A DNA stretch of 64,000 nt from Candidatus Saccharimonadota bacterium (GTDB lineage Bacteria; Patescibacteriota; Saccharimonadia; Saccharimonadales; Saccharimonadaceae): contig JAFWMY010000008.1 of NCBI GenBank assembly GCA_017545485.1, positions 1-64,000 on the forward strand. Reading direction: 5' to 3'. A program made the translations under genes and the position numbers. Of the stretch, positions 3,001 to 62,887 are shown one piece after another; the stretch's first letter is position 1, and every line of letters starts with the position of its first letter. The notes under the pieces are model-generated. The model ran no database searches. It was given only the letters and a program-made list of their open reading frames with translations, and was not told the DNA's origin.

Positions 3001-6000
3001 GGCGGTACTGGTGGTACTACCAGTGCACAAGTAATATATAATGACACTAAGATTACTGCTAATAATGGTGGTACAAGTGAAGGTGGTAATATCACTAATC
3101 CAACTAGAAGTGATACTTATACAGTTTCTGGCTTTACCAAGACTACATCTGCTAATAATTCTACAGTATCATCTACTACTACCCTTAATTCTGTAAGACC
3201 ATATACATTTAATGGTTGGTATAAAGAAACTGGTGCTACTACCCAAATTGCATCTAATGCTACTAAACCTGCACTAACTGCTTCTAATGGTTATACTAAC
3301 AGCAGTAAACAATGGACCTATACTACGGCAGGGAATATTACACTTTATGCCGGTTGGACGGCTGGTAGCTTTGCTGCTGTGACACTGCCTACTATCACCA
3401 GAACTGGTAGCACCTGTGGTTGGAGCACTAGTAGTACTGCTACTACCATATCTTATGCTTCTGGTGCATCCTTTACACCTACTGGTAATACTACACTTTA
3501 TGGTGTATGTGTGAATAACATTACTATAAATAAGAGTAATTGTCCTACTACTGCAGGTGGCGCAAGTTCTGCTACAGTAAACTACAATGCTACTTCACTT
3601 AACTCATTTACTGCTCCTACATGTAGTAATGGTACTGCTTCACGTACAGTTTCTGGCTTTACTAAGACTACATCTGCTACTAACTCTACAGTTTCTGCTA
3701 CTACTACACTAACCAGCTCTGCTACTACTACTTATACATATGCTGGATTATACCAACAAAGTGGACTGACTACTTTAGTAGCAAATACTAGCCGTGCCTT
3801 ACAAGCTAGTACAACTTATACTGATGCTAACAGTAAATGGACTTATACTACAGCTTCTGCCGTGACACTTTATGCTAAGTTTAATAGTAGCACTGGCAAT
3901 TACTCTGCCGTTACACTTCCAACCATCACCAGAACTGGTAGCACCTGTGGTTGGAGTACTAGTAGTACTGCTACTACCATTACTTATGCTTCTGGTAGCA
4001 CACTAACACCTACTGCTAATACTACGCTTTATGGTGTATGTGTGACTAACATTACATTAAACAAAAATGGTGCTACTAACTCTCCTACTACATCTACAAC
4101 TGTAAATTACAATGCTACAACTTTTGGTGCCCTTGCTACACTTCCTACTAAATCTAATACTACTGCTACACGTACAGTTTCTGGTTGGACACTGCCGTCT
4201 TCTAATAATGCAGATGGTGCTACAGTAAATGGTGGTACTGCTCCTGGCACACTAAATAGTACTGCTACTGTGACACATACATTTAATGGTTGGCATGCAT
4301 CTTCTGGTACTGGCACACTAATTGCTAGTAAAGATTCTACTCCTGCTCTTCAGGCTAGTACAACATATACTAACAGTAGTAATCAATGGACTTATACCAC
4401 GGCAGGGAATATTACACTTTATGCTGGCTGGGATGATAGTACTGGTAGCTTTTCTGCAGTTACTTTACCTACCATTACTAAGACAGGCTATACTTGTGGC
4501 TGGACTACTACTGCTACTAATGCTACAACCATCACTTATGCTTCTGGTTCTAGTTTGACGCCTACTGCTAATATTACACTTTATGGTGTATGCAATATAA
4601 AGAATAACCTAAGTCTTAAAATCTCATTTGACTCTACCTATGTATCCAGCATTGCAGTTAAAACTGGTTCTGCTTCTGGCACTACAGTTGGCACAGTATC
4701 TACTAGCGGTAATAGTGTAACTGGCCTAACATATGATACTGCATATTATCTTGTACCAACCTACACTACCGGCTCTGTCCTTAACTCATGGGCTAAAGAT
4801 TCTGGTGCAGTTGGTACATTATCATCTACTTCTGCTGCTAATCCTACATATACGATTGGTGATGGGACAAATGCTGTAACTCATAGTGGTAAGAGAGCTA
4901 CATACACGGTAACACTTAAAAAATGTAGTGCTACTAATACTCCTACTAGTTCAACTACTGCTACATATTATTCTACGACTCTTGGTGCTCTTGCTACACT
5001 TCCTACTAAGTCTAGCTTTACAATTTCTGGATTCACTGCGCCGGCAGGGAATAATGCTTCTGGTGCTACCGTCTCATCTACTACATCGCTTACTGCTACT
5101 AATACCTTTAATGGTTGGCATATTGGTTCTTGTGCAAGTCCTGGTACACTGGTGGCTTCTTCTGCTTCTACACCTGCACTCCAAGCCAGTGTGTCTGGTT
5201 ATACAGATTCTTCTAAACACTGGACTAGAACTAGTGCGGCTACACTATATGCTGGCTTTACCACTCAAGCTAAAACATTACCTACTATTACTAAAACTGG
5301 TGGGTTTGCCTGTGGTTGGACAGCCACATCGTCTGGCGCTACTGACTTTACTTATGCTTCTGGTGCAAGTATTACCCCTACCGCCAATACTACACTTTAC
5401 GGTGTGTGTAAATGTCCCGCTAATACTATTTGTTATGATAAAAATGCTACCAGTGGTGTAGAAGGAACTATGGGTGGACTAACAATAACTTCAACTGCTA
5501 CTTCAGCTACCCTTCTAGCTTCTAACTATAGCAGATCTGGTTATGGCTATGCTGGTTGGAACACTAATGCTGCTGGGACTGGAACTAACTATGGGCCAAA
5601 CGAAGATATTGCCTTTACGGCTGGACAGTATTCTGCTACAGGTTTGACATTATACACTAAATGGGTTGCAAGTGCTGGAAATATTCAGAATTGGAATGGA
5701 TGTGATAGTTTAGCGTCTGGGGCAGTAACGGCTCTTACAGATCAACGAGATAACCAGGTTTATGCTATAGCTAAACTTGCTGATGGACAATGCTGGATGA
5801 TTGAGAACTTACGCTTAGAGAATAGCGGTACTGACAACTCTAACGGTTCTCTTGCTCAAGGTTATGGCGGTCAATTTGCTGGCCTAGCTGCTGCGGAAGC
5901 CGCTTGGAGAAAAGGTAACTCTGCTGCTAACAGTCTTTACTATAGTGATACTCAAAGTGGTACAGCAACTATAGATATTGGTACGTCCAACCCTGGCTTC

Positions 6001-9000
6001 CGTTTCCCACGTTATAACCATGATAACACTAACTCTAGAGCATCCAGCCCAACAGCTAACAGCACCGCTATGTACAATTATGGTAACTACTACACTTGGG
6101 CAGCCGCTATTGCAGATACTACTAACTATTCCAGCGGCGATCATGGTGCTACATCAATTTGCCCTACCGGCTGGAGAATACCTATAGGTGCTCAATCTAC
6201 AGTAGACAAAAGTTTCGGCGCTTTAAGCGTAGCTCTCGGTGGTCCAGCAGGTGGAGCAACGGCAAACTCTTCCTCAACTCCAACTGGGGCAGTGATGTCC
6301 GGTGTCTTTAGAAGCTATCCTAACAACTTCGTCTATTCTGGTCTTGTAGTTGATCAAGACTTGGTGGACTATCGTGGCTCTGGCGGCTATTATTGGTCGT
6401 CTACTACTGCCTCGGCTTACCCCGCCTATCGCTTGTCCGTGGTTTCATCTGGCGTCTATCCAGGGACGGACAACAACTTTAAGTATTATGGGGGGGCAGT
6501 GCGCTGCGTCAATAATAAAAAGTATATTCAGGATTTGACTGTTGATGAAGTTAATAATATGGCAGTAGGTGAAACGCTTGCACTATATGATAAAAGAGAT
6601 GAGGAGGTTTATAGGGTTGCAAAACTAGCAGATGGGAATGTTTGGATGCTTGATAATTTGAGATTGGGTGGTAGTTCCGCCAAAGTATTAACTCCGGATG
6701 ATACTAACATTACATTCAATTATACTTTACCTGCGAGTACGGCAAGTATTGGATCAAGCTATAATACAGCAAAAATTAATACGGATTATAAAGATACTAC
6801 GGCAACTGGTTATGGTGGCGGGAGTAAAAAAATAGGAACATTTTATAATTATTGTGCCGCAAGTGCTGGGACATATTGCCATAATGATGATGCTGGGGAT
6901 GGCTATGGCACCATAAATGTTGATATTTGCCCTGCTGGGTGGAGGTTGCCTTCTGGTGGTGGATATGGTGATTTTCAAACACTGCTGAATAATTATAGTA
7001 GTACACTTGAACCGACTAATTCGGCTAGTTTGCAATACAATCTTTCAACAGTACAAACTGGGTATTATAGTGGTTCGTCAAAAACTGGTAGTACAATAAA
7101 TTATTGGTCCTCAACTCCGACTAATGGAACTTCGGTACATAAGATGTATGTGGATGGGACAAGTGTTTCTAATACAACATCTAGTGCGCGTTATTATGGA
7201 TATTCTATCAGGTGTGTGTTTTCTCCAGAAAAAACTTTAAGCAATGTGACATATTTGCAAGATGTTACTCCTACTATTGCTAGTCTGATGACAACAAATA
7301 CAACGTATACTTTTAAAGATAAAAGAGACGAAGAATCTTATAAAGTTGCAAAACTGGCAGATGGGAATGTTTGGCTATTAGACAACTTGAGATTAGGAAG
7401 CACTTCTAGCAAGGTTTTGACGCCAGCAGACACAAATATCGTAGAGGACTTTACGTTACCGGCATCTAGTACGTCTGGGTTTACATCTGCGGCAACTAGT
7501 TATACAACTGCGGCGATTAATACTAGTTATAAGAATACTGTTCCAACGGTTACTTATGGAGCTGGCAGTGGTAAGATAGGCACTTATTATAATTATTGTG
7601 CCGCAAGTGCGGGAACATATTGTTTACCTTCTGATTTTGGAGACCATAGTAATTCAGATTATGACGTCTGCCCGGCTGGATGGAGAATGCCAACAGGAGG
7701 AGAAAGTGGGGAATATACAGCATTAAGGGGTAGTGCTGGCGGCGATATTAGAACGGTGCTATCTACGGCTAATACTGGTAATTTCTATGATGGTGCACGC
7801 GGAAATGTGAATACTGGGGGGTTATTCTGGTCGTCTTCATGGCAGGGAGATAATGCGTCTATGAGTTTCTTGTCCACTACTTCTTCAAATCTAGGGACTA
7901 TTACATATGGAGGACGCCGGTATGGCGCTTCGGTACGTTGTATTTTGAAAAATGGTAAGACTAATTCCAATAAAATATATATGCAAGATTACAATAAGTC
8001 TGATTGTGGCACACAGGCAAATAAAGGTCCAGTTGAGGTGATAGATAAGAGAGATGGATATAAATATAGCGTACGTTATATTAGTGATATGTGTTGGATG
8101 GTAAAGAATTTGCGTACTACTGGCACCATCAATGCAGAAGATTCTAATTTCTCAACAAATGCTAGCGTCAATGTTTCTCAATATGATTTGGCTGGTACTG
8201 GTTCAGGGATTCAGACTTATACTTTGCCTAGTTCACACTCTCCTTCTTATGTAACCGATAATACAAACTTCAGTTATTACCAGGCTGAAAAAATAGGTAA
8301 ATGGTATAATTTCTGTGCCGCTTCTGCTAATACAGCTTGTTCTTCATCTGCGAATGTTACTGCATCTGAGGATATTTGTCCTGCTGGTTGGCATTTAATA
8401 GACGCAAGTAATATACTCACATCTCAAATGGCTGCGGCTTACTTTACACCGGATTTTTCGCCAATGTTTGCTGGAAGTTACTATGGTTCAGGTTCTCCTC
8501 AATTTATAGGTGAGAGAGGCTATTGGTGGGCTAAGAATGGTTATAGTGGAACAAACCAACAGGGATTGTGGTATCAAAAATCATCTTCTGCCCAGTTATC
8601 AAACTGGTATAAGTATAGTGGCGTAAGTATTCGTTGTGTGAAGGATGTGGATACTGGAATGACTAAAACTATGCAAAACGTTGATTCTTGGAAGGAGCAA
8701 TTAAATATTGGTGATAAAACCACAGCTAAAGATACTAGAGATGATAATGAGTATACAGTAGCAAGATTAGCAGATGGAAGACTATGGATGCTTGATAATC
8801 TGAGACTTGGTTCTACTTCATCTATAGCACTTACATCTAGTAACACTAATATTGCAAATAACTATACTCTTCCAGCCGGTAATGTAACTAACTTTAATTC
8901 ATATACAAGTGCGCAAATTAATACCACAAATAAAGATGCGGCATCTAATGGATGGTATAATGGTGCTGGTGTAAATAAGAGAGGCGTATACTACAATTAT

Positions 9001-10116
9001 TGTGCAGCATCAGCTGGGACGTATTGTAGTTCTTCTGGAACACAGAATGCTGTCTATGATATTTGTCCGAAGGGGTGGAGATTGCCAACAAATAATGAGT
9101 TTAATAATCTTGTGAGCCAAATTGGTGCTTCGAATTTTGCCCAAGGGTTTTCTGTGAATTTAGCTGGAGTATACAGCGGTAGTAGTTTTTATTCAGGCGA
9201 AGTTGATTATTGGACTTCAACGCGATCCTCTAACACAGCTATGTATGATCTTGCTTTCGATATAGATGAGGGGATTATTCAGAATGATCCTAATAGTAGA
9301 CAGAGAGGGCAAACAATTAGATGTGTAGCTGACGAAGAAAAATATTTGCACGATGTAAACAAATGGGAGGGCGAATTATCCATAGGGGATACGACTACGG
9401 CTAAGGATTATAGAGATGGGAACGAATATACGGTTGCTAGACTTGCTGATGGAAAGGTATGGATGGTAGATAATTTGAAATTAGATCTCGTGTCGGTTCC
9501 TTATGAAAAATTGGTTGGTGCTACAAACGCTGAAAGCCAGACGTTGTATTATTTGAAGAATGGTACTGGGCCAAGTGGTGAAACAGGCCAATATGCTACC
9601 ATGGGGGTAAAGAATGGTGATTCTGGTAATTGGGTAAATTCATATGATACACCATATATATTTACACAAAACAAGGATGTTATTCCAGGCCCAATGGCTA
9701 ACGCTAATGGTTCATTGACATCCGGTATTATATACAATCATTGTGCGGCTTCAGCTGGGTCATATTGCTATCCGCTTGGTTATGGGTCTGTAGTTAATAC
9801 TACTGAGGATATTTGTCCGGCTGGGTGGAGAATGCCTACGGGTGGAGCAACGGGAGATTTTGGGGCTTTGTATACTGCTTACTCTTCTAACGTTGATAAT
9901 TTTCGTAATAACGCAGGGCTAGTTTTGTCTGGATATATGGGGAGTGGGACTGGGATAACTAATGTAAATACTGGAGGCTATTATTGGACATCTTCGCTCC
10001 TTTCCGATACTGCTAAGAGGAAAGCTATGTATGTTTATCAAGGATCGGTGAACTTTACTGATGGTTCTTCGGATAATCGTTATTGGGGTTATGCGGTTAG
10101 GTGTGTGAAAAAATGA
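1..10116 (+). CDS. Giant repetitive surface protein, InlB-like repeats plus six FISUMP-like modules (5' end missing)
   Basis: The reading frame is open from base 1, so the start lies left of the window; 3371 residues are visible. The first ~1890 residues are Thr/Ser/Gly/Ala-rich repeats of ~170 aa with the Listeria-Bacteroides (InlB B) pattern: YTFNGWY, TLYAGW, TLPTIT, TLYGVC recur about nine times. The last ~1480 residues hold six modules of ~230-270 aa with KLADGxxWMxDNLRL, YYNYCAASAGTYC, DICPAGWRxP, YYWSS and a final RCV, which match the Fibrobacter succinogenes major paralogous (FISUMP) domain. Each module has several cysteines, suggesting disulfides outside the cell. No LPXTG motif or C-terminal membrane segment is seen; the protein ends right after the sixth module. 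Likely a secreted or surface-anchored adhesin; the host-binding role is inference. The first ~5.6 kb has a narrow codon set (ACT, GCT, TCT, GGT), unlike the later modules. Confidence 0.88.
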   Translation, partial: LSSGATTGSSSSAVTTSWNGSSATTNQYFKNLRSDTGTATMVANWTPQAITLPTISKTGYTCTWTYGGNSYASGASYTPTANSADSLAFTAQAAIKTNLSLKVSFDSTYVSSIKVCKTSGNCSGSDLMGTVTTSGNSVSGLTYGVAYYLYPTYTTGSVLNSWSKDSGAVGTLSSTSAANPTYTIGDGTNAVTHSGKRATYTVTLSQCSATTNGSTSATATYYSTTLSAITNPQRAYTISFANNVSGAMASSTSTLTSTYTFNGWYTGSCASPSTLVASNATTPALQASVSGYTDSSKRWTRTSAATLYAGWTGQAKTLPTITKTGYTCGWTTSSTGTTIEYASGASITPTSDLALNSVCIAKSYTITLNKNGATNTPTASTTVTYNNTTLDNIATLPTKDNTTATRTVSGFTKTTSANNSTISSTDTLNSTQTTTYTFKGWYKESGATNKIAGTGNTPTLETTSSYTTGGKWTNDGAVTLYAGWNSSAGNYSAVTLPTITRTGSTCGWSTSSDAIAITYASGASITPTGNLTLYGVCVTNVVLNGNGATTAGTTSVNVKYGVGGLSTTGGITAPQRSYSVSGWTLPSSNNANGATVNGGTAPGTLTSTYTFNGWYQEAAATHKIAGSGSTGDLLANTAYTDSNNQWNYTGTSVVTLYAGWTGGSITLPTITKTGYTCGWTTTATNATTITYASGASLTPTANTTLYGVCNIKNNLSLKVSFNSTYVSSIKVCKTSGNCSGSDLMGTVTTSGNSVSGLTYGVAYYLYPTYTTGSVLNSWAKDSGAVGTLSSTSAANPTYTIGDGTNAVTHNGKYDTYTITLNRNCSTTATGSTSATVTYLATSLSSITVPTCSNATSTRTVSGFTKTTSATNSTVSSTTTLNSTQTTTYTFNGWHLTSGTGTLIASSASTPALQQSVSGYTNASKQWTKTSGETFYAGWNASTGNYTSVTLPTITRTGSTCGWSTSSTATTITYASGSTLTPTANTTLYGVCVTNITLNANGGTGGTTSAQVIYNDTKITANNGGTSEGGNITNPTRSDTYTVSGFTKTTSANNSTVSSTTTLNSVRPYTFNGWYKETGATTQIASNATKPALTASNGYTNSSKQWTYTTAGNITLYAGWTAGSFAAVTLPTITRTGSTCGWSTSSTATTISYASGASFTPTGNTTLYGVCVNNITINKSNCPTTAGGASSATVNYNATSLNSFTAPTCSNGTASRTVSGFTKTTSATNSTVSATTTLTSSATTTYTYAGLYQQSGLTTLVANTSRALQASTTYTDANSKWTYTTASAVTLYAKFNSSTGNYSAVTLPTITRTGSTCGWSTSSTATTITYASGSTLTPTANTTLYGVCVTNITLNKNGATNSPTTSTTVNYNATTFGALATLPTKSNTTATRTVSGWTLPSSNNADGATVNGGTAPGTLNSTATVTHTFNGWHASSGTGTLIASKDSTPALQASTTYTNSSNQWTYTTAGNITLYAGWDDSTGSFSAVTLPTITKTGYTCGWTTTATNATTITYASGSSLTPTANITLYGVCNIKNNLSLKISFDSTYVSSIAVKTGSASGTTVGTVSTSGNSVTGLTYDTAYYLVPTYTTGSVLNSWAKDSGAVGTLSSTSAANPTYTIGDGTNAVTHSGKRATYTVTLKKCSATNTPTSSTTATYYSTTLGALATLPTKSSFTISGFTAPAGNNASGATVSSTTSLTATNTFNGWHIGSCASPGTLVASSASTPALQASVSGYTDSSKHWTRTSAATLYAGFTTQAKTLPTITKTGGFACGWTATSSGATDFTYASGASITPTANTTLYGVCKCPANTICYDKNATSGVEGTMGGLTITSTATSATLLASNYSRSGYGYAGWNTNAAGTGTNYGPNEDIAFTAGQYSATGLTLYTKWVASAGNIQNWNGCDSLASGAVTALTDQRDNQVYAIAKLADGQCWMIENLRLENSGTDNSNGSLAQGYGGQFAGLAAAEAAWRKGNSAANSLYYSDTQSGTATIDIGTSNPGFRFPRYNHDNTNSRASSPTANSTAMYNYGNYYTWAAAIADTTNYSSGDHGATSICPTGWRIPIGAQSTVDKSFGALSVALGGPAGGATANSSSTPTGAVMSGVFRSYPNNFVYSGLVVDQDLVDYRGSGGYYWSSTTASAYPAYRLSVVSSGVYPGTDNNFKYYGGAVRCVNNKKYIQDLTVDEVNNMAVGETLALYDKRDEEVYRVAKLADGNVWMLDNLRLGGSSAKVLTPDDTNITFNYTLPASTASIGSSYNTAKINTDYKDTTATGYGGGSKKIGTFYNYCAASAGTYCHNDDAGDGYGTINVDICPAGWRLPSGGGYGDFQTLLNNYSSTLEPTNSASLQYNLSTVQTGYYSGSSKTGSTINYWSSTPTNGTSVHKMYVDGTSVSNTTSSARYYGYSIRCVFSPEKTLSNVTYLQDVTPTIASLMTTNTTYTFKDKRDEESYKVAKLADGNVWLLDNLRLGSTSSKVLTPADTNIVEDFTLPASSTSGFTSAATSYTTAAINTSYKNTVPTVTYGAGSGKIGTYYNYCAASAGTYCLPSDFGDHSNSDYDVCPAGWRMPTGGESGEYTALRGSAGGDIRTVLSTANTGNFYDGARGNVNTGGLFWSSSWQGDNASMSFLSTTSSNLGTITYGGRRYGASVRCILKNGKTNSNKIYMQDYNKSDCGTQANKGPVEVIDKRDGYKYSVRYISDMCWMVKNLRTTGTINAEDSNFSTNASVNVSQYDLAGTGSGIQTYTLPSSHSPSYVTDNTNFSYYQAEKIGKWYNFCAASANTACSSSANVTASEDICPAGWHLIDASNILTSQMAAAYFTPDFSPMFAGSYYGSGSPQFIGERGYWWAKNGYSGTNQQGLWYQKSSSAQLSNWYKYSGVSIRCVKDVDTGMTKTMQNVDSWKEQLNIGDKTTAKDTRDDNEYTVARLADGRLWMLDNLRLGSTSSIALTSSNTNIANNYTLPAGNVTNFNSYTSAQINTTNKDAASNGWYNGAGVNKRGVYYNYCAASAGTYCSSSGTQNAVYDICPKGWRLPTNNEFNNLVSQIGASNFAQGFSVNLAGVYSGSSFYSGEVDYWTSTRSSNTAMYDLAFDIDEGIIQNDPNSRQRGQTIRCVADEEKYLHDVNKWEGELSIGDTTTAKDYRDGNEYTVARLADGKVWMVDNLKLDLVSVPYEKLVGATNAESQTLYYLKNGTGPSGETGQYATMGVKNGDSGNWVNSYDTPYIFTQNKDVIPGPMANANGSLTSGIIYNHCAASAGSYCYPLGYGSVVNTTEDICPAGWRMPTGGATGDFGALYTAYSSNVDNFRNNAGLVLSGYMGSGTGITNVNTGGYYWTSSLLSDTAKRKAMYVYQGSVNFTDGSSDNRYWGYAVRCVKK
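290..592 (+). repeat. Long near-identical repeat, copy A
   Basis: About 300 bp coding from NLSLKVSF to NAVTH. It recurs almost unchanged at 2137-2438 and in a more diverged form at 4603-4892. The spacing shows that a higher-order block of several InlB-like units was duplicated. Confidence 0.85.
2137..2438 (+). repeat. Long near-identical repeat, copy B
   Basis: Nearly the same bases as copy A at 290-592, including the stretch coding for SGNCSGSDLMGTV and TYTTGSVLNSW; the differences are mostly silent. Confidence 0.85.
4603..4892 (+). repeat. Long repeat, copy C (partly diverged)
   Basis: Both ends match copies A and B, but the middle differs: AVKTGSASGTTVGTVST replaces the cysteine-bearing segment found in the other copies. 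Confidence 0.8.
5683..10113 (+). repeat. Six tandem FISUMP-like modules
   Basis: Modules begin near 5683, 6517, 7231, 7957, 8653 and 9337. Each has a DxRDxxxYxVAKLADGxxWM start, a CAAS(A)GTYC centre, an ICPAGWR motif and a YGxxVRCV end. The modules differ clearly in DNA sequence, so they are older duplications than the upstream repeats. Module 4 is the most diverged (RYISDMCWMVKNLR). Confidence 0.78.
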
Positions 10117-20222: not shown

Positions 20223-20305
20223 GGTAGTCTACTGTTTTGGTGGGGTAGTGGTACGTTAACAGATGCTTTTTGAAGATTCATAAATCAAGATTGGAGGTGG
20301 TATAC

Positions 20306-21088
20306 TTGGATAGGGCAGAATTTGATAAACTAGTGGAGTTGGCTGAGACTGGTCTTGCGGACGAGAATGAATTAACAAGACTTGAACCTTATAGGGCGAA
20401 AAGAGCCATCTTCTTAGCTGCTGGAATGGGGACTAGATTAAGACCAATTACTGTAAACACGCCGAAGCCTTTAGTGAGGGTGAATGAAAAAAGAATTATC
20501 GAAACAATGATTGACGCATGTCTCGAGATTGGGATATCGGAAATATATATTGTCAGAGGATATTTGGCAGATGAATTTGATATACTGTTGAAAAAATACC
20601 CAATGATAAAGTTTATCGATAATTTGGAGTATGATGTTGCTAATAATATTTTATCTGCAGTAAAATCTTGCCATCTTTTTGAGAATGCGTATGTGTTGGA
20701 GGCGGATTTGTTAGTGACTAATCCTAAAATTTTGAAAAAATATCATTATGATTCGGAGGTATTAGGCATTTGGAAATCTTATAGTGATGACTGGTGCATG
20801 ACGTCGGATCATGAGGGATATGTGTTGAGTGAATTTGTTGGTGGTAAGAATTGTTATCAAATGGTAGGCATTTATTATTGGAATAAGCAAGATGCTAAGA
20901 TGTTGAAAATAGACCTAAATGAGGTTTATTACAGAATGCCTGGCGGGCATGATATGTATTGGGAAACAGTTCCGAATCAAATATATCAAGGAAAATACAA
21001 AATCAAGATAGTATCTTGTCAACAAGATGATGTCGTTGAAATTGATACTTTTGATGAATTGAGACAGATTGATAAATCATATCTTTAA
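20306..21088 (+). CDS. LicC-like nucleotidyltransferase (probable phosphocholine cytidylyltransferase)
   Basis: 260 aa. After a ~32-aa N-terminal helical stretch comes the sugar-phosphate nucleotidyltransferase signature AAGMGTRLRP (38-47) with TPKPLVRV; later EADLLV and the GHDMYWETV segment resemble LicC, which makes CDP-choline from phosphocholine and CTP for decoration of teichoic acid or LPS. Start chosen as TTG at 20306 because GGAGGTGG ends 6 nt before it; an upstream in-frame TTG at 20270 lacks this. An APC permease follows 15 bp later. No choline kinase or LicD transferase is in the window, so the exact substrate is an inference; related NTP transferases remain possible. Confidence 0.75.
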   Translation: MDRAEFDKLVELAETGLADENELTRLEPYRAKRAIFLAAGMGTRLRPITVNTPKPLVRVNEKRIIETMIDACLEIGISEIYIVRGYLADEFDILLKKYPMIKFIDNLEYDVANNILSAVKSCHLFENAYVLEADLLVTNPKILKKYHYDSEVLGIWKSYSDDWCMTSDHEGYVLSEFVGGKNCYQMVGIYYWNKQDAKMLKIDLNEVYYRMPGGHDMYWETVPNQIYQGKYKIKIVSCQQDDVVEIDTFDELRQIDKSYL

Positions 21089-21103: not shown

Positions 21104-22567
21104 ATGAATGGAGATATGATAAGGAGTGGTGTTGGCTTAAAAAAACAACTTAGTCCAACACATGTTTGGGCTATTGCGTTTGGTTGTATTATTGGTTGGG
21201 GTTCATTTATCAATCCTGGAAAAAAATTTTTGCCTAATTCTGGTGTGGCTGGAACGGCGGTTGCGATGATCCTGGGTGCTTTAGTAATGGTTATCATTGC
21301 TAGAAGCTATGCTTATATGGTGCCAAAGTATCCAAGAGCGGGAGGTGAATTTACTTTCACTAAAGCTTGTTTTGGCAAAACGATGGCTTATGTTTGCGGA
21401 TGGTTTTTAGTAGTAGCATATTTAACTAATGTGCCGATGAATTCTACAGCAATTGGTTTAATTGTGGATGGTTTAGATGGGGCAGTAGATATTTTGAAAT
21501 TCGGGTTCCATTATCAGATTGCTGGTTTTGAAGTCTGGTTAGGAGAAATACTATTAGCATCAGCAATTCTAATTTTATTTGGAGTACTGAATATTCTTGG
21601 TGTAAAGAAAGCCGGATTTGTGCAAACGATTTTGGCAATCTTGCTTGCTACTTGTGCAATTACGTTGTGTGTGGCAGGTTTGGTTTCAGCAAAAGCAAAC
21701 GGCGTAAATATGCAACCGATATGGGGTTTTGATAAATCTGCGGCAATGGCTGCAGGTGCCACAACAGACAATATTGGTGAGTTTGCTCATGTTGGAAGTC
21801 AAGGCATAATATCTGCAGTTTTGGCAACATTTGCAATCGCTCCTTGGGCTTTTGTAGGCTTCGATACGATACCTCAGGCAGCGGAAGAGTTTAAGTTTTC
21901 TTACAAGAAGGTAATGGTAATTTTAGCAATTGCGATTGCATTTGGTTGCTTTGTGTATGTATCTAATAATACAGTAGCTGCTGCGGCGCTTGAGAATTGG
22001 CCAACGCGTGTAATGGCTGGGGAATGGGTGCTTCTAATCGCGGCAACTGAATTATTGGGAGGTTTTGGTAAGATTTTGATTGGGGTCGGTGTATCTTCAG
22101 CGGTATTGTCTGGTATAATGGGGTTCTATCTTGCTTCATCGAGGTTGATGTATTCCATGAGCCAGGATGGCTTTTTACCAGAGTGGTTTGGTAGAGTTGA
22201 TAAACGTTTTGGGACGCCGCGGAATGCAATGATTTTCTGTATAATCGTGTCTTTATCTGGACCGATTTTAGGACGGGAAGCATTAGGTTGGTTTGTAGAT
22301 ATGTCGGCAATTGGTGCGTCAATCGGATATTTAGCAACAAGTGTTGCTACGCTTAAAACTATACATCGCGATAAAGATGGAACGCGTTTGCTTAAAACTT
22401 TTGCGATACTTGGTGCAATCTTTTCGTGCATATTTATTATTCTACAGTTAGTGCCAATACCAGGTCTTTCTGGTGTACATTTTGGTAGAGAGAGCTATAT
22501 TATGCTTGTTATATGGATTGCACTTGGAATTGTCTTTTACGTAAGACAGAGATCACATTTTAAATAA
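21104..22567 (+). CDS. APC-family amino acid/amine permease
   Basis: 487 aa with about 12 membrane segments. FGCIIGWGSFINPG near the start is the glycine-rich helix-1 motif of APC transporters, and PRAGGEFTF follows in helix 2. GGGGGGTG lies 8 nt before ATG. Its position right behind the licC-like gene, in one transcript ended by the hairpin at 22581, suggests that it imports the amine (choline, ethanolamine or similar) that LicC activates. This parallels licB-licC pairing in lic loci, although LicB is a different transporter family. An amino acid substrate is equally possible from the sequence alone. Confidence 0.85.
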   Translation: MNGDMIRSGVGLKKQLSPTHVWAIAFGCIIGWGSFINPGKKFLPNSGVAGTAVAMILGALVMVIIARSYAYMVPKYPRAGGEFTFTKACFGKTMAYVCGWFLVVAYLTNVPMNSTAIGLIVDGLDGAVDILKFGFHYQIAGFEVWLGEILLASAILILFGVLNILGVKKAGFVQTILAILLATCAITLCVAGLVSAKANGVNMQPIWGFDKSAAMAAGATTDNIGEFAHVGSQGIISAVLATFAIAPWAFVGFDTIPQAAEEFKFSYKKVMVILAIAIAFGCFVYVSNNTVAAAALENWPTRVMAGEWVLLIAATELLGGFGKILIGVGVSSAVLSGIMGFYLASSRLMYSMSQDGFLPEWFGRVDKRFGTPRNAMIFCIIVSLSGPILGREALGWFVDMSAIGASIGYLATSVATLKTIHRDKDGTRLLKTFAILGAIFSCIFIILQLVPIPGLSGVHFGRESYIMLVIWIALGIVFYVRQRSHFK

Positions 22568-22580
22568 AAGCATCTGAATA

Positions 22581-22612
22581 AATGAGCCCCCTTTTCGTAA
22601 GGGGGCTTATTA
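22581..22612. terminator. Bidirectional terminator
   Basis: AATGAGCCCCCTT and AAGGGGGCTTATT form a ~13-bp stem with a TTCG-type loop between the convergent permease gene and the small membrane-protein gene. It can end both transcripts. Confidence 0.85.
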
Positions 22613-22616
22613 ATTC

Positions 22617-22817
22617 TTATTTGATTTTAATGTTGTCTGATTCGACTTCTTTATGTTTATTTTCGTCTATACCGAGTTTTTTATTAACCTTTTTCTTGGC
22701 TCTTCTGATATAGAGACCGATGAAAGCTCCGATAGCGATGACGATTCCGGCTCCAGCTTGGATAGCATAGGTCATCACAGATGGGTCAATGTAGCCAAAG
22801 GTGTTCAGTAAATTCAT
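22617..22817 (-). CDS. Small single-span membrane protein in the glycerophosphotransferase operon
   Basis: 66 aa: one membrane helix (~15-38) followed by a basic RRAKKKVNKKLG stretch and a charged C-terminal tail, so the tail is probably cytoplasmic. Its ATG overlaps the stop of the YidC::glycerophosphotransferase fusion by 4 bp, making it the third member of that operon. I do not recognise a family. A role as small subunit or scaffold of the polymer-synthesis complex is inference from position only. Confidence 0.75.
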   Translation of the reverse strand: MNLLNTFGYIDPSVMTYAIQAGAGIVIAIGAFIGLYIRRAKKKVNKKLGIDENKHKEVESDNIKIK

Positions 22818-24724
22818 TTTTGCTTTCTCCTTTCTTTAATCTTTGATTGAACACATTTTATAATGTACTCGCCTCCAATTTTAGCGGATTTACCTATATT
22901 ATATACCGAATCTTTTTCAAGATCGGTGATTTGTTTCTTGTATTTGGTAGGGTTTTTGAGAAGCTTGGTGATTGTTTTGTCAATGTTCTGTATATCTTTA
23001 ACTTTGACAACTTCTCCGATTATCTCACGACACCAGATATTAATTGGTTCGATATCAATTTTTTTGTAATCTGGATTCATAATTTTCATAGGCGTATCAA
23101 TAGAAATAACTGGTTTTTTAGTAGTGAAGGCATAGTCAAAAGCAATACTGGACCAATCCGTAATAAGAAGATCGGCGTTAAAGACTGTATCGTTGGCAGA
23201 GAAATCAGTTTGAATAGTTATATTGGTACCGGTATATTTTTCTTTCATTTGTTCAAACATTTCTTTGGCATGACGGACGTGCTGAGGGTGTGGGCGTACA
23301 ACTACTTGATAGTTTTTACCTTTGAGAGTTTTTAAAACTTTGTCTAAACACAGATCAATAATGTTGTCTTTTTGCCAGCTAGGGGCAATCATGATAGTCT
23401 TAGTTTTTGTTTTTGTTTTATTGGTTTTTTGAGAAACTTTGTATTCTTTGGCCATATCGTCGAATAGAGTGTAGCCAAAGTCGATGAGTTTACGGTTAGG
23501 AAGATTGCGGAGTTTATTTTCGGCTTCGCATTCTAAACGTTGGTATTTACCGGTAAGTAGGATAGAGTCGTAATAATCAAGTGCTCCTTTGCGATAAGTT
23601 AAATTAGGGCTATCAGCTCCGTGTGGCACGAAAATATACTCAATGTCTTTTCGGACATAGCTTCGTTTAATATGATATTGATTGATATCTGGCATGGTCA
23701 TAACTACAACATCAGCATCCATTTTCATCATTAAAGTGATAAGTTTTTTCTCTTCAATGTAATATGGTTTAATATTTTTTTCTTTTTTAGCAAGCTCGAA
23801 GATCTGATCGTTATAGTCGCTAGTAATATAATGAATGGTGAGGTTGGTGTGACTTAGAATGTATTCGATGATACCTTTGTAGTATTTATAAAAACCATTA
23901 CTTTCAGAATAAAATACGAGTTTTTTGTTGGTAATAGAGAAAAACCTTTTGTAATCTTCTTTTTCTTTTTTAATTTGTTCTTTTGTGCGTTTTTGGTTCT
24001 TACTTAGGTTTTGTAATTCTTTTAATTCAATACGGGAGGCTTCTAGTGCTTTGTAGTCAACGTGTTTTTTAGGATTGATGCAAATATTAAGGATCCATTG
24101 TTGTAAAATAGCTAGAAGATTACTGGCGGTCCAGTAGAGTGCAACTGCAGCAGTTACGAAAGTTCCTAGATAAACGGATAGAGCAACGGAAAAGACAAGC
24201 ATCCCATATTTATTCCATTTAGATTGTTCGGCTTGGAGGACGTTCATAATGTTTTGCCCGATACATAATAATAGGGAAGAAAGGCCAGCAATAATAGGAA
24301 CTAGAATTGATAGGCCACCAGTTTCAGAAGTAACCCAGCGAAGATCAAAGCCGAGAAAATTATAGTCTAAGTTTTCGACGCCGATGTAGAGTGAGGGATT
24401 TTTGACAATTTCTACAACCCCTAGAAGTAGAACAATTTGAGCTATTAACGGGACAAGTGAGACGAGAGGATTATATCTGTATTTTTTATAAATCTTGGAT
24501 TCTTCTTCTGCAATGGCGTCTTTATCGCCAAAAAAATTGGTTTTTAGACGATTAATTTCTGGTTGCATTTTAACCATTTTGATGGAGTTTTTCTGGACCC
24601 AAATGGCAATTGGAAGGAGAATAATTTTACTAACTAAAGTAAATAAAATGATAGCAATGCCGTAGTTACCAACTATGCCATAGCATAGTTTCATAATCCA
24701 ACCAAGAATATCAATAAAAATCAT
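22814..24724 (-). CDS. YidC/Oxa1-like insertase fused to CDP-glycerol glycerophosphotransferase (TagB/TagF-like)
   Basis: 636 aa. Residues 1-~215 are a YidC/Oxa1 domain with about five membrane spans (NYGIAIILFTLVSKIILLP, MQPEINRLK, ALYWTASNLLAILQQWILN). The groove arginine usual in YidC is Lys33 here. A charged linker (~215-260) leads to a C-terminal glycerophosphotransferase domain with VPHG (~366), RPHPQH (~476) and TDWSSIAFDYAF (~521), the paired His and SS motifs of the TagB/TagF family that adds glycerol-phosphate to teichoic acids. The start is the ATG at 24724 in a 4-bp ATGA overlap with the LtaS-like gene upstream; a longer in-frame start at 24769 would overlap more and lacks support. 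The frame is uninterrupted across the junction. Confidence 0.86.
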   Translation of the reverse strand: MIFIDILGWIMKLCYGIVGNYGIAIILFTLVSKIILLPIAIWVQKNSIKMVKMQPEINRLKTNFFGDKDAIAEEESKIYKKYRYNPLVSLVPLIAQIVLLLGVVEIVKNPSLYIGVENLDYNFLGFDLRWVTSETGGLSILVPIIAGLSSLLLCIGQNIMNVLQAEQSKWNKYGMLVFSVALSVYLGTFVTAAVALYWTASNLLAILQQWILNICINPKKHVDYKALEASRIELKELQNLSKNQKRTKEQIKKEKEDYKRFFSITNKKLVFYSESNGFYKYYKGIIEYILSHTNLTIHYITSDYNDQIFELAKKEKNIKPYYIEEKKLITLMMKMDADVVVMTMPDINQYHIKRSYVRKDIEYIFVPHGADSPNLTYRKGALDYYDSILLTGKYQRLECEAENKLRNLPNRKLIDFGYTLFDDMAKEYKVSQKTNKTKTKTKTIMIAPSWQKDNIIDLCLDKVLKTLKGKNYQVVVRPHPQHVRHAKEMFEQMKEKYTGTNITIQTDFSANDTVFNADLLITDWSSIAFDYAFTTKKPVISIDTPMKIMNPDYKKIDIEPINIWCREIIGEVVKVKDIQNIDKTITKLLKNPTKYKKQITDLEKDSVYNIGKSAKIGGEYIIKCVQSKIKERRKQK

Positions 24725-26370
24725 AGGTCGTATTCCTTTCCAGTGGGTGTTAATGTTTTGGTGTTCCAAGCCTTATCGGTTTGTTCATACTCCTCCATAT
24801 GTTCTTCATGATTAAAGCTGTTATTGATGAACCGTCTGATGCGACCTTCAGTCGGGATATCTTTAAAGATTTCAGTACTAGATTTATTATCCAATAGCTC
24901 GGTGAAAGCTTCACACAAGTCAGCATATGAAATCTGTTTATTAGAAATAAACATTTGGTCATGAGTTTCATGTTTTCCTTTGATGTAGAGGATGGGATTG
25001 GCGCGATTGGTACCATTATGCCAGAAGCCGTGATCGGCTAGTAGAACTATAGTAGCGTTGTCGTAGGCGTTGTTTTCTTTGAGACGTGATAAATATGCTT
25101 CGATAATTTTCATAGTGGCTTCTAGTTTTTCTTCATAAGTGCCGTTTTCTTCTGGTAGAAGTGTAACGTCTTTACTGTTATTGAATGGGACGTGGCCACC
25201 TTCTATATGAATAAATTGGAAATAATTTTGATTAGTTTTAGAAATTGGTTGCTTGAGATAATTGTTATAAAAATTAATGTTGCTCCAATTAAAAGAATCA
25301 TAATCTTGAGTGGTTTGTGCAGCAGAAAAATTAAGGGTTTCAATACGGGAGAATTTTTTTAGTGGGAATGGGAGAGCTTTATATAAAAAGTATTTGGTTT
25401 CTTCTTTGAGAAGAACCAAGCGTTTGGGATTCTTTTCGGACGAAACTATATTGTCGAATTCTAGAGCTTTAGCGCTATTCCAGGTGAAGTCGTAACTATA
25501 GAAGTTTTTGTTATAGTTTTTTTCTGATAATCTGGCAAAAAACTTAGAATTGTCGTATGCTTTAGTTGAATATTCGGGAAACTGAACTTGATTTTCATTC
25601 CATTCGCCAGAGAAGATTGATGGAATAGCGTCACGGGTGAAAGAGTAACTAGAAAGTGTATCTGGAAAATATGAAAAATCCTTTAAATCTTTTTGGTATT
25701 TTTGATTGTTTTTTACGATGTTGTTAAAATGCGTAGAGTCAACTGCGTCGACAAGTAATATAAGAAAGTTTTCATTATTTGAAAGTAAGTTAAGATTCTT
25801 AATAGTGGAGTTAGTGATAATTTCTTTGGGCTCAAAAACGTCAGTAGTAAATAGAGTTGATGAAAACGATATAATTAGTATAGCGAAAATTGCTGAAACA
25901 AGATAAAAACAATACTTGGTGGTTTTTCGTGGTTTTGCCTTAATAAAACTGAAAATGAGAAGAGAAAATAAAACTAAGCAGATGACAATTGAAATTATAT
26001 TGGCAGTTGGGTTATTCCAGTTAAAAGTAGTGCCGTCAAGTGGTGGGAGGAAACTGGTGAGAAAATTGCTATGAATATAGGCGCAGAAGAAACAGGCGCT
26101 TGCGAAGGATAAAATGATGTAGTATAAGTTTGGATGGTTAATCCATTTTGCAATTAGTTTGATAATTAGGAAGAAAATAAACAATGCAAAGAATGTGGCA
26201 GTGAAAAATAAGAAAGATGGCCCAATAAGAGTGTAAAAATCGAACCAGAAGTCATCAAGATTATTGGCATACATTGTAACTGGTTCATAAATGAAAATCA
26301 TGAAACTGACAATAAGAGATAAAAAAGTGGCAGGTATAAGACTTTTGATTTTTTTAAACACTCTTTTCAT
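24721..26370 (-). CDS. LtaS-like / sulfatase-family membrane enzyme
   Basis: 549 aa. Five membrane spans fill residues 1-~180, followed by an extracytoplasmic alkaline-phosphatase-superfamily domain: LLVDAVDS (~205, metal-binding Asp), SFTRDAIPSIFSGE (~242, Thr as the likely nucleophile), IEGGHVPF and LADHGFWHNG (~446, metal-binding Asp-His). This is the layout of lipoteichoic acid synthase and phosphoethanolamine transferases. It heads an operon with the glycerophosphotransferase fusion, so transfer of glycerol-phosphate or a similar group outside the membrane is likely. TGATATAAT ends 11 nt before the ATG. Exact donor and acceptor are unknown. Confidence 0.85.
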   Translation of the reverse strand: MKRVFKKIKSLIPATFLSLIVSFMIFIYEPVTMYANNLDDFWFDFYTLIGPSFLFFTATFFALFIFFLIIKLIAKWINHPNLYYIILSFASACFFCAYIHSNFLTSFLPPLDGTTFNWNNPTANIISIVICLVLFSLLIFSFIKAKPRKTTKYCFYLVSAIFAILIISFSSTLFTTDVFEPKEIITNSTIKNLNLLSNNENFLILLVDAVDSTHFNNIVKNNQKYQKDLKDFSYFPDTLSSYSFTRDAIPSIFSGEWNENQVQFPEYSTKAYDNSKFFARLSEKNYNKNFYSYDFTWNSAKALEFDNIVSSEKNPKRLVLLKEETKYFLYKALPFPLKKFSRIETLNFSAAQTTQDYDSFNWSNINFYNNYLKQPISKTNQNYFQFIHIEGGHVPFNNSKDVTLLPEENGTYEEKLEATMKIIEAYLSRLKENNAYDNATIVLLADHGFWHNGTNRANPILYIKGKHETHDQMFISNKQISYADLCEAFTELLDNKSSTEIFKDIPTEGRIRRFINNSFNHEEHMEEYEQTDKAWNTKTLTPTGKEYDL

Positions 26371-26420
26371 TACTATCTGTAATTATATCATATTATTGGT
26401 AGTATGATAAAATAATAGAT

Positions 26421-29502: not shown

Positions 29503-30279
29503 TTAATCCCAAAGTTTAGTATAGGCATTTGCGACTTCGTTTGGGTCGCCGTCTTTAGTAATTTCTCCGTTTTCTATGAGAATAGCACGTGTGCAAAACT
29601 TACGAACATTTTCCATAGAGTGTGTAACAAGAATTACGGTTTGATTGTCATTTCTTAGTTTAGAGAAATAGTTGTTGCATTTTTGTTGGAATGCCGCATC
29701 GCCGACGGCTAATACTTCATCTAATAATAAAATATCACCTTGGGCACGAATGGCAATGGAAAAAGCGAGGCGGACTTGCATACCACTGGAGTAATTCTTG
29801 AGTTTTTGGTCTTGAAAATCTTTAAGTTCGGCAAATTCCCAAATGTCGTTGTACATGGCATCCATTTCTTCATTAGAGAAACCAAGTAGAGCGCCATTCA
29901 AGTAAACATTTTCACGACCAGTAAGCTCGGGATTGAAACCGACACCCAGTTCGATAAATGGAACTAGATTTCCATCGATGATAATTTCTCCTTTCTCTGG
30001 ATAGTAGATGCCGGCGAGGATTTTGAGAAGAGTAGATTTGCCAGAACCATTGCGACCGACAATTCCGATAAACTCGCCTTTTTTAATTTTAAAGTTTAGA
30101 CCTTTGAGAACTTTTTGTCTTCTGTATCCTTTTACGCCACGAAGACGATTAAAAATAACTTGCTTTAGACTGGAGGATTTTTCGGTAGGGAGGTTGAAAC
30201 TTTTGTGAAGGTCTTTAACAGAGATAGCAACATCTCCATCTGTGATAATTTCTGAGCGAGTACCGAGTTTGCGTTTCAT
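29503..30279 (-). CDS. Polysaccharide/teichoic acid ABC exporter, ATP-binding subunit (Wzt/TagH type)
   Basis: 258 aa. GRNGSGKST (Walker A), YSSGMQVRLAF (signature), LLLDEVLAVGD (Walker B) and the H-loop VTHSMEN are all present. It lacks the extra C-terminal carbohydrate-binding domain of long Wzt proteins, so it resembles TagH or short Wzt. The ATG shares one base with the stop of the permease gene (TAATG). It powers flipping of lipid-linked polymer across the membrane. Confidence 0.93.
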   Translation of the reverse strand: MKRKLGTRSEIITDGDVAISVKDLHKSFNLPTEKSSSLKQVIFNRLRGVKGYRRQKVLKGLNFKIKKGEFIGIVGRNGSGKSTLLKILAGIYYPEKGEIIIDGNLVPFIELGVGFNPELTGRENVYLNGALLGFSNEEMDAMYNDIWEFAELKDFQDQKLKNYSSGMQVRLAFSIAIRAQGDILLLDEVLAVGDAAFQQKCNNYFSKLRNDNQTVILVTHSMENVRKFCTRAILIENGEITKDGDPNEVANAYTKLWD

Positions 30280-31088
30280 TAGACTTCCTCCGCGAAGAAT
30301 TTTGATTTTTTACGAAAAACTAGAGCTCCGAAGACAAGTATGGTAATAGTAATAAGGATTGGGATTAGGGCTAGTGGTGAATTAAGAAAATTCCATGTGG
30401 TGATGGTTTCTTGTGTAATAAGACCATAACGGATGTCTTGAATAGTTTGGGAAATAGGATTTAAAAGGATGATTTTGGCGGCTAGTGGGCTGGTATTTGC
30501 TACCATAGTGATAGGATAGATAATGGGAACGGCATAAAAGAGCGCTTGGATGATAACATCCCAGATAGAGGTAATATCACGATATTTAACATTGATGGAA
30601 CCGAGCAAAAAAGCAATCCCGAGCGACAAAAGATAAAGTTCGATAATGGCTGGTATGATTAGAAGGCACATAGGACTGAATTCGACGTGGTTAATGAGTG
30701 CGAATATGATAATAACACCGACGTTTATTAGCATATTAATAACTGCAGTAAGAGTGGCAGAGACGACTACGATGTATTTAGGGAAACTGATTTTACGAAT
30801 GAGATCACCGCGAGATACAATAGCTTGAATGCCTTGGGAAGTACATTCGGTAAAGAAACTCCACATGGTAGTGCCACACAGAAGATAGACTGGGTAATGG
30901 GGGATATCGTTGCCGATACGGAGAAGTTTGGCAAAGACGATATAAAGGATTGCGAACATCATGAGAGGACGAAGCAAAGCCCATAGATAGCCGAGAACGG
31001 AGCCTTGATAACGGATTTTGAAGTCGGTTTTGGTGAGCTCACTTAAAAGGATGCGATTTTTCTTATTAAAAACACGAGGTATATTCAT
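30279..31088 (-). CDS. Polysaccharide/teichoic acid ABC exporter, membrane subunit (Wzm/TagG type)
   Basis: 269 aa with six membrane spans; TDFKIRYQGSVLGYLWALLRP and LRIGNDIPHYPVYLLCG are typical of the ABC-2 family Wzm/TagG. Partner of the ATPase that overlaps it. TGATAAAAT ends 9 nt before ATG. The pair would export a lipid-linked glycan or teichoic-acid-like chain, after which the LCP protein at 10348 could attach it to the wall (inference). Confidence 0.93.
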   Translation of the reverse strand: MNIPRVFNKKNRILLSELTKTDFKIRYQGSVLGYLWALLRPLMMFAILYIVFAKLLRIGNDIPHYPVYLLCGTTMWSFFTECTSQGIQAIVSRGDLIRKISFPKYIVVVSATLTAVINMLINVGVIIIFALINHVEFSPMCLLIIPAIIELYLLSLGIAFLLGSINVKYRDITSIWDVIIQALFYAVPIIYPITMVANTSPLAAKIILLNPISQTIQDIRYGLITQETITTWNFLNSPLALIPILITITILVFGALVFRKKSKFFAEEV

Positions 31089-53513: not shown

Positions 53514-53590
53514 GGTCCGGTAGCTCAGTTGGTTAGAGCACGAGCCTCTTAAGCTTGGTGTCGTGGGTTCGAGCCCCACCCGGATCACCA
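53514..53590 (+). tRNA. tRNA-Lys (CUU), with recombinase gene running into it
   Basis: Acceptor GGTCCGG pairs with CCGGATC; D arm GCTCAGTTGGTTAGAGC; anticodon loop CTCTTAA gives CTT; T arm GTGGGTTCGAGCCCCAC; CCA encoded. TGGTATAAT at 53491-53499 is its promoter. The opposite strand codes for the C-terminus of the serine recombinase. Confidence 0.95.
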
Positions 53591-55191: not shown

Positions 55192-55195
55192 AGTT

Positions 55196-55351
55196 TTAGA
55201 ACACGACAACTACTCCGTCGTCGCACACTCCTTTCTCTTTGTTGGACTCGCGCTCTGGCGAATCGTCTATGTCGTCTAATGCGCAAAGTAATTGCACTAG
55301 GTTTTTGACGGCTTCTTTTCGGTCTTCTACGACCGGTTGTTCCTTTTGCAT
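55196..55351 (-). CDS. Small acidic protein upstream of the recombinase
   Basis: 51 aa, running from MQKEQPVVEDRKEAVKN to DDGVVVVF, rich in Asp/Glu. It stops 4 nt before the recombinase ATG, so translation of the two is probably coupled. An overlapping 73-aa frame (55188-55409) is Arg-rich and looks like the out-of-frame shadow. Function unknown; a recombination directionality factor or regulator is only a guess from position. Confidence 0.55.
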   Translation of the reverse strand: MQKEQPVVEDRKEAVKNLVQLLCALDDIDDSPERESNKEKGVCDDGVVVVF

Positions 55352-62766: not shown

Positions 62767-62796
62767 TTGGGACCTCCTTTGGTACATGTTTATATA

Positions 62797-62825
62797 AGTA
62801 TATTGTACAAAACTACACGTGTCAA
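62797..62825 (-). promoter_or_regulatory. Sigma-70 promoter with palindromes, Avs-like gene
   Basis: TTGACA (62825-62820), 17-bp spacer, TATACT (62802-62797) on the minus strand. Two palindromes overlap it: ACACGTGT (62815-62822) at the -35 and TTGTACAA (62803-62810) touching the -10. Either could be the operator for the protein's own HTH domain (inference). Predicted leader ~24 nt. Confidence 0.75.
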
Positions 62826-62887
62826 GTGTGATTACGTATAAATAAACGATCTTTTTCACTTCCAAAAGTTCGAATCCCAGTTCCTGT

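Follow-up and report, generated by a model that had tools for sequence, protein, structure and literature searches.

A three-gene operon in a genome of Candidatus Saccharimonadota encodes a sulfatase-fold membrane enzyme (gene 1), a YidC domain fused to a TagF-type phosphotransferase (gene 2) and a small membrane protein (gene 3). It lies in a stretch of 64,000 nucleotides (assembly GCA_017545485.1, contig JAFWMY010000008.1, positions 1 to 64,000), referred to here as the window. The analysis showed that the operon is a conserved genetic unit with coupled parts, that folds and active sites are preserved, and that it is associated with genes for cytidine monophosphate (CMP)-activated head groups. 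We consider it likely that this cassette decorates the cell surface with such head groups by some route. That it works as a complete transmembrane relay, in which a head group is loaded onto a lipid, crosses the membrane and is transferred outside, is a proposal that we regard as evenly balanced between right and wrong.

The three open reading frames (ORFs) are located on the minus strand at 24721-26370 (gene 1), 22814-24724 (gene 2) and 22617-22817 (gene 3), and adjacent frames overlap by the 4 bp ATGA (24721-24724 for genes 1 and 2, 22814-22817 for genes 2 and 3). An earlier note on this DNA had reported these ORFs and their overlaps, and had described the middle gene as one unbroken frame joining a YidC and a TagF-type domain with VPHG, RPHP and TDWSS motifs. 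All of this was confirmed: gene 2 runs over 636 amino acids (aa) from the ATG at 24724, both domains exceed their Pfam cut-offs and the motifs are present. A promoter-like site, TTATCA-17-TATAAT, is located directly before the gene 1 ATG (26382-26410, minus strand); its score is the joint best of the promoter-like sites in the region, the total of such matches being no more frequent than in shuffled sequences. With so little space before the ATG, a leaderless transcript is possible. Directly after gene 3 lies a strong, terminator-like hairpin (22581-22611) that could act in both directions and separates the operon from a convergent permease gene. Together, the promoter-like site and the hairpin suggest that the three genes are transcribed into a single RNA.

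In gene 2, the YidC/Oxa1 domain is covered by PF02096 (60KD_IMP) at residues 21-213 (24086-24664, minus strand; E 5.8e-30, above the Pfam cut-off) and scores 95 bits with TIGR03592, the cut-off being 84.3. The transferase domain is matched by PF04464 (Glyphos_transf) at residues 265-541 (23102-23932, minus strand; E 2.5e-15, 56.8 bits against a cut-off of 22.1). In the AlphaFold model (predicted local distance difference test, pLDDT, 89.2) the first domain superposes on YidC of E. coli and B. halodurans (6al2, 3wo7) with a root-mean-square deviation (rmsd) of about 3.5 over 213 columns. The second has a GT-B fold of the TagF/TarL type, with TagF (3l7l) as best structural match (Z 23.0, rmsd 5.1, 347 aligned). 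A PDB sequence search with the transferase domain by itself returned only chance matches and did not align TagF, so that the relation to TagF rests on Pfam and structure. YidC proteins have their N-terminus outside and their C-terminus inside the cell. By this topology the transferase domain faces the cytoplasm, and the sulfatase domain of the natural triple fusions described below lies outside.

Alignment of 65 fusions showed that His368, Arg477-Pro478-His479-Pro480 and Asp523-Trp524-Ser525 are invariant, with their one-to-one mapping onto the catalytic His residues of TagF made by motif order; the active site is thus intact and not degenerate, a point the earlier note had wanted checked. In the membrane domain, N20, K33, Q54, Q96, Q157 and others are invariant or nearly so. 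Lys33, the positively charged groove residue in the first transmembrane helix, is at least 90% conserved across the fusion family, and its replacement of the usual Arg had been taken as a hint at specialisation. This idea had to be given up: both stand-alone YidCs of the window genome and other congeners also carry Lys at the equivalent site (Arg is present in many other relatives), and the residue is therefore uninformative here. Fusions of 690 aa from Bacillota (e.g. L049-L051) have an insertion of ~55 aa near residue 115, in the external loop region of the YidC part.

Gene 1 encodes a protein of 549 aa with five predicted membrane helices and an external domain of the sulfatase/alkaline phosphatase fold, a layout like that of LtaS, EptA and GacH. 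It is matched by the Pfam sulfatase family PF00884 (E 2.2e-6); no NCBIfam model matched. The AlphaFold model (pLDDT 93.6) has long N-terminal helices followed by an alpha/beta domain, whose structural matches are YejM, sulfatases, phosphonate monoester hydrolases and Listeria LtaP (Z about 19-21); Foldseek also found MCR-1. Six residues, Asp208, Thr245, His388, His393, Asp446 and His447, are invariant in 47 homologues of 18-65% identity. Judged by motif, this set of residues is typical of LtaS/EptA-like enzymes that use a Thr nucleophile, with Thr245 as putative nucleophile and Asp208, Asp446 and His447 as metal-type residues.

Gene 3 encodes a small membrane protein with a single span that has no match in Pfam. 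It carries a YIDPSV(M)TY motif; the core YIDPSVMTYAIQA...G, the span and the cytoplasmic tail, LGIDEN-K-KEVESDD, are strikingly conserved, and most copies from Bacillota start with a signal-peptide-like sequence. At 24 of the 81 loci compared below, a gene for an S26 signal peptidase is found near the cassette (e.g. L050:4203-4652), which perhaps processes this signal peptide.

Relatives of the fusion were collected from one genome per GTDB species, and the best 80 of 208 relatives were kept, which together with the window gives 81 loci. Within the class (295 genomes) the fusion occurs only in the genus of the window, in 10 of 76 sampled congeners. Among the relatives kept, those from Saccharibacteria are ~69-80% identical and those from Bacillota ~49-63%; the latter are gut and rumen bacteria (Lachnospiraceae, Oscillospiraceae, Clostridia, Bacilli and Erysipelotrichaceae). 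Homologues split into two genes, named beforehand as a reason for doubt, did not appear: the relatives are fused over their whole length wherever the contig allows, the exceptions being truncated contigs. Since the YidC::TagF-type fusion is kept in these 80 relatives, and the gene order in most of them, it is not a chance product. A tree of 65 sequences groups the Saccharibacteria in a single clade (support 100), which lies within a supported set of Bacillota (97). This nesting suggests that the cassette was transferred once, from Bacillota to Saccharibacteria, a direction that depends on the midpoint root. In a plasmid collection no record covered 80% of the fusion, the matches there being to ordinary YidC-like proteins.

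The three parts are tightly coupled. A gene-3 homologue is found near the fusion at 79 of 81 loci and at all 48 loci with at least 5 kb on both flanks; at the two loci without one (L092, L113) the contig stops right after the fusion. Gene-1 homologues (E <1e-150) are present in all ten fusion-bearing congeners, even when located on another contig than the fusion (e.g. G127, G240), whereas none of the 66 other congeners has one at that level; a single fragmentary match (3e-6) was obtained among the latter. In Bacillota, 33 of 37 fusion-bearing genomes have a gene-1 homologue. The parts are also found joined: proteins of 1180-1200 aa combine sulfatase, YidC and glycerophosphotransferase (GPT) domains at L062, L086 and L095 (Pfam confirms the three domains in L086), and in Erysipelotrichaceae the small protein is fused to the sulfatase (L082, L088, L090, L102, L110, L112). 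Co-occurrence and natural fusions suggest that the sulfatase-fold enzyme and the YidC::GPT protein belong to the same pathway.

The genes around the operon point to the kind of group that is transferred. In the window, a LicC/PntC-type cytidylyltransferase is encoded at 20270-21088 (plus strand) and probably makes a CMP-activated head group. Its best PDB match is S. pneumoniae LicC (1jyk; E 3.7e-24, residues 4-227). Phosphocholine-specific LicC has Asp at two positions (D105, D192), where the T. denticola PntC, which prefers 2-aminoethylphosphonate (AEP), has Glu (Rice et al., PMC6697681). The window enzyme carries Glu at both, as does T. denticola PntC, and so lacks the Asp pair of phosphocholine LicC; position 192 was counted on the alignment with 1jyk. 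Some LicC-type enzymes at other loci have a winged-helix-like N-terminal region (L080:7064-7975, L082:12157-13095), of which the window copy retains a short remnant (20270-20392). The convergent gene at 21104-22567 (plus strand) encodes an APC-family permease (PF13520, E 1e-43) that probably imports an amine, amino-alcohol or phosphonate substrate, and APC permeases accompany LicC at further cassette loci (L046, L094, L110). At two of these an octopine-dehydrogenase-like enzyme is encoded as well (L094:4698-5777, L110:10046-11149), which could modify the head-group amine. Profile matches identified a Wzt/Wzm (TagH/TagG-like) ATP-binding cassette (ABC) exporter pair at 29503-31088 (minus strand), the likely exporter of a glycan acceptor; such a pair is present at most Saccharibacteria cassette loci.

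Strong LicC-type genes were detected in 7 of 10 fusion-bearing congeners and in 0 of 66 others (Fisher p 5e-8); the remaining three have a TagD-type gene and/or a pyridoxal phosphate (PLP) enzyme at their own loci or at those of near-identical relatives. In Bacillota, a LicC-type gene was detected in 33 genomes; in 26 of these it lies no more than 10 kb from the fusion, where 0.4 would be expected. This comparison is only indicative, because the profile was built from cassette-neighbour genes and the genomes are related. A LicC-, TagD- or phosphoenolpyruvate (PEP)-mutase-type gene is present at 38 of the 48 well-flanked loci. The supply genes vary: a full AEP pathway (PEP mutase, phosphonopyruvate decarboxylase, AEP transaminase and a PntC-type enzyme) at L060, L091, L093 and L100, an AEP-type ABC importer before LicC at L054 and L080, a BCCT transporter at L102 and L112, and LicC fused to a CobD-like PLP domain at L036, L072 and others. 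One and the same transfer cassette is thus combined with different supply routes for small CMP-activated head groups, and this genomic context argues for CMP donors other than CDP-glycerol or CDP-ribitol as substrates of the TagF-type domain.

These data can be combined into the relay proposed above. A LicC/PntC-type enzyme encoded outside the operon would produce a CMP-activated head group, in the window most likely AEP or phosphoethanolamine. The cytoplasmic TagF-type domain would then shift this group from CMP onto a lipid of the membrane, perhaps diacylglycerol. The YidC fold would offer a dedicated groove in which the loaded lipid crosses the bilayer or is handed over, and the outward-facing gene 1 enzyme would take the head group from the lipid via Thr245 and attach it to a glycan, presumably exported by the nearby Wzm/Wzt pair. 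The small YIDPS protein might serve as a fixed subunit that ties both enzymes together. There are precedents: lipid scrambling has been seen in vitro with purified and reconstituted E. coli YidC (PMC10491306), GacH cleaves phosphatidylglycerol and places glycerol phosphate on the group A carbohydrate (PMC12282279), and three-component systems that load, flip and transfer exist for sugars (PMC7389260). A role of the YidC part as a lipid conduit is possible, and it is the role we favour. More tentative, and in our view somewhat below an even bet, is the further claim that the YidC fold was recruited as a lipid flippase or scramblase, so that a self-contained three-part machine installs AEP-like groups on surface glycans and supplies the missing transfer steps of phosphonate tailoring.

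Several observations weigh against the relay. No CMP-activating gene was found near the cassette at 10 of the 48 well-flanked loci, and the LicC profile favours near copies. No PEP mutase was found in the window genome, which rejects de novo phosphonate synthesis there and means that AEP would have to be scavenged. Four of the 37 Bacillota genomes (G307, G316, G325, G327, mostly draft assemblies) have the fusion and no recognisable sulfatase-fold partner. Two other activities are possible as well: the YidC part may be a chaperone for its partner proteins, and the data are also compatible with a TagF-type domain that acts directly on the glycan instead of a lipid.

Protein insertion is the familiar role of YidC, and the YidC part might simply be an insertase. 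If it were the housekeeping insertase with an accidental fusion, family membership would be all that speaks for it, and we consider the chance negligible. The window is contig 20 of a genome of 885 kb (estimated by tools as 99% complete with 4.1% contamination) that encodes two stand-alone YidCs (G000 contigs 14 and 26; L002, L001) of 379 aa each and 81% identity, possibly because the bin combines two strains. Each of the nine other fusion-bearing congeners has one stand-alone YidC, so that all ten genomes are covered, and the fusion is conserved across two phyla. For this genus the housekeeping role is rejected and the fusion is an additional, specialised YidC. The earlier view that it is not a general insertase thus held, helped by the search for a second yidC that it had called for (both copies have Lys, not Arg, at the groove site) and by the perfect phyletic match with the sulfatase-fold gene. 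A dedicated insertase that inserts or folds gene 1 and the small protein, with the transferase fused for co-assembly, would explain why the YidC part is still recognisable above the TIGR03592 cut-off and why a membrane protein of typical YidC client size is always co-encoded. Against it stand the separate yidC genes of all fusion-bearing congeners, and an insertase needs neither fusion to a CMP-donor transferase nor neighbours that activate head groups; we hold this explanation to be improbable.

The remaining alternatives concern the transferase. TagF and TarL use acceptors that are linked to lipid and exposed on the cytoplasmic side of the membrane. On this precedent, the TagF-type domain could put the CMP-activated group directly on a lipid-linked glycan in the cytoplasm, before export by Wzm/Wzt; YidC would be an anchor, and the gene 1 enzyme would make a modification of its own at a later stage, drawing on ordinary phospholipids in the way of GacH. 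The Wzm/Wzt pair near the operon and the four Bacillota genomes without a sulfatase-fold partner agree with this route. An anchor would not need a complete YidC fold in which many membrane residues are invariant or almost so, though, and the co-occurrence (10/10 versus 0/66) together with the natural sulfatase::YidC::GPT proteins argues for a single pathway, so that we rate cytoplasmic decoration as unlikely but worth keeping in mind. The earlier note had proposed a teichoic-acid-like polymer; on this reading the TagF domain would polymerise glycerol phosphate from CDP-glycerol, and the LtaS-like enzyme would act outside. PF04464, the structural match to TagF, the presence of LtaS and LtaP among the relatives of gene 1 and TagD-type cytidylyltransferases at 14 of 81 loci would fit such a polymer. 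At most loci LicC/PntC-type or phosphonate genes are found in their place, and no TagD-type gene stands beside the operon in the window (the rest of its genome was not searched). Where a TagD-type domain occurs, it often shares a polypeptide with a GFO/IDH/MocA oxidoreductase and has a gene for a PLP enzyme as neighbour, which suggests that its substrate is not plain glycerol-3-phosphate. As originally worded, the polymer proposal is not supported, and we give it very little probability: the conserved neighbours activate or import head groups of the AEP, phosphoethanolamine or choline type, and decoration of a glycan therefore fits better than a poly-glycerol-phosphate chain.

Compared with known systems, the proposed relay most resembles CsbB/GtlA - GtcA - YfhO/GtlB (PMC7389260), in which a cytoplasmic loader acts on a lipid, a small membrane protein flips it and an outer enzyme transfers the group to a wall polymer. 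It would differ in that a phospho or phosphono group comes from a CMP donor, that a YidC fold is joined to the loading enzyme and that the outer enzyme has a sulfatase fold and not a GT-C fold; the operon also lacks a GtrA-family protein. Gene 1 shares with GacH-type transferases, LtaS and LtaP the membrane helices, the external sulfatase fold, the Thr nucleophile and the Asp-His metal site, and GacH modifies a surface polysaccharide, as we propose for gene 1. Unlike these enzymes, gene 1 is only remotely similar in sequence (see its Pfam and NCBIfam results above) and is tied to a partner enzyme of its own. With TagF, TarL and TagB (PF04464), gene 2 has in common the GT-B fold and the HG, RPHP and DWSS motifs; it differs by its fusion to YidC and by donors, which at most loci would be of the CMP-AEP, phosphocholine or phosphoethanolamine type and not CDP-glycerol. 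From YidC/Oxa1 insertases, whose fold, five-helix core and groove region it shares, gene 2 is set apart by the C-terminal transferase domain and by the existence of a separate housekeeping copy. Pnt pathways (PEP mutase to PntC; PMC6697681) are represented at several cassette loci by genes for PEP mutase, decarboxylase, transaminase and PntC-type enzymes.

For those pathways the activation to CMP-AEP has been described, and the later Pnt steps were called enigmatic (PMC6697681). A literature search for a YidC-glycerophosphotransferase fusion, for AEP with CDP-glycerol or YidC, and for YidC with LtaS gave nothing relevant, subscription journals not being covered. The parts themselves are all members of known families, but no system in the literature searched has this combination with such tight conservation across two phyla. 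Being a conserved machine common to two phyla, the operon is more significant than could be known from the window. There is a fair chance that the cassette accounts for the transfer steps still missing for the surface phosphonates of gut bacteria; if so, it is a candidate for the steps after CMP-AEP. It would also be a natural case in which a YidC-fold protein exists for the sake of lipid scrambling, an ability known until now from reconstituted proteins (PMC10491306). For the host-dependent Saccharibacteria it would be a route to alter their surface that was apparently acquired from Bacillota neighbours. Automatic annotation may label the fusion protein simply as YidC.

The window genome contains neither a second PF04464 gene nor a second PF00884 gene. 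As for a choline kinase partner, it has one APH-family protein, which is unlinked and whose Choline_kinase match is below the Pfam cut-off. Elsewhere in the window, a defence-like protein of 1375 aa with HTH_3, Mrr-type nuclease and STAND-NTPase-like parts is encoded at 58738-62865 (minus strand); PADLOC gave nothing convincing for it. A large serine recombinase (Resolvase, Recombinase and zinc ribbon domains; 53533-55209, minus strand) is encoded near this gene and may indicate a mobile element. A presumed surface protein of 3331 aa, rich in repeats, is encoded at 121-10116 (plus strand).

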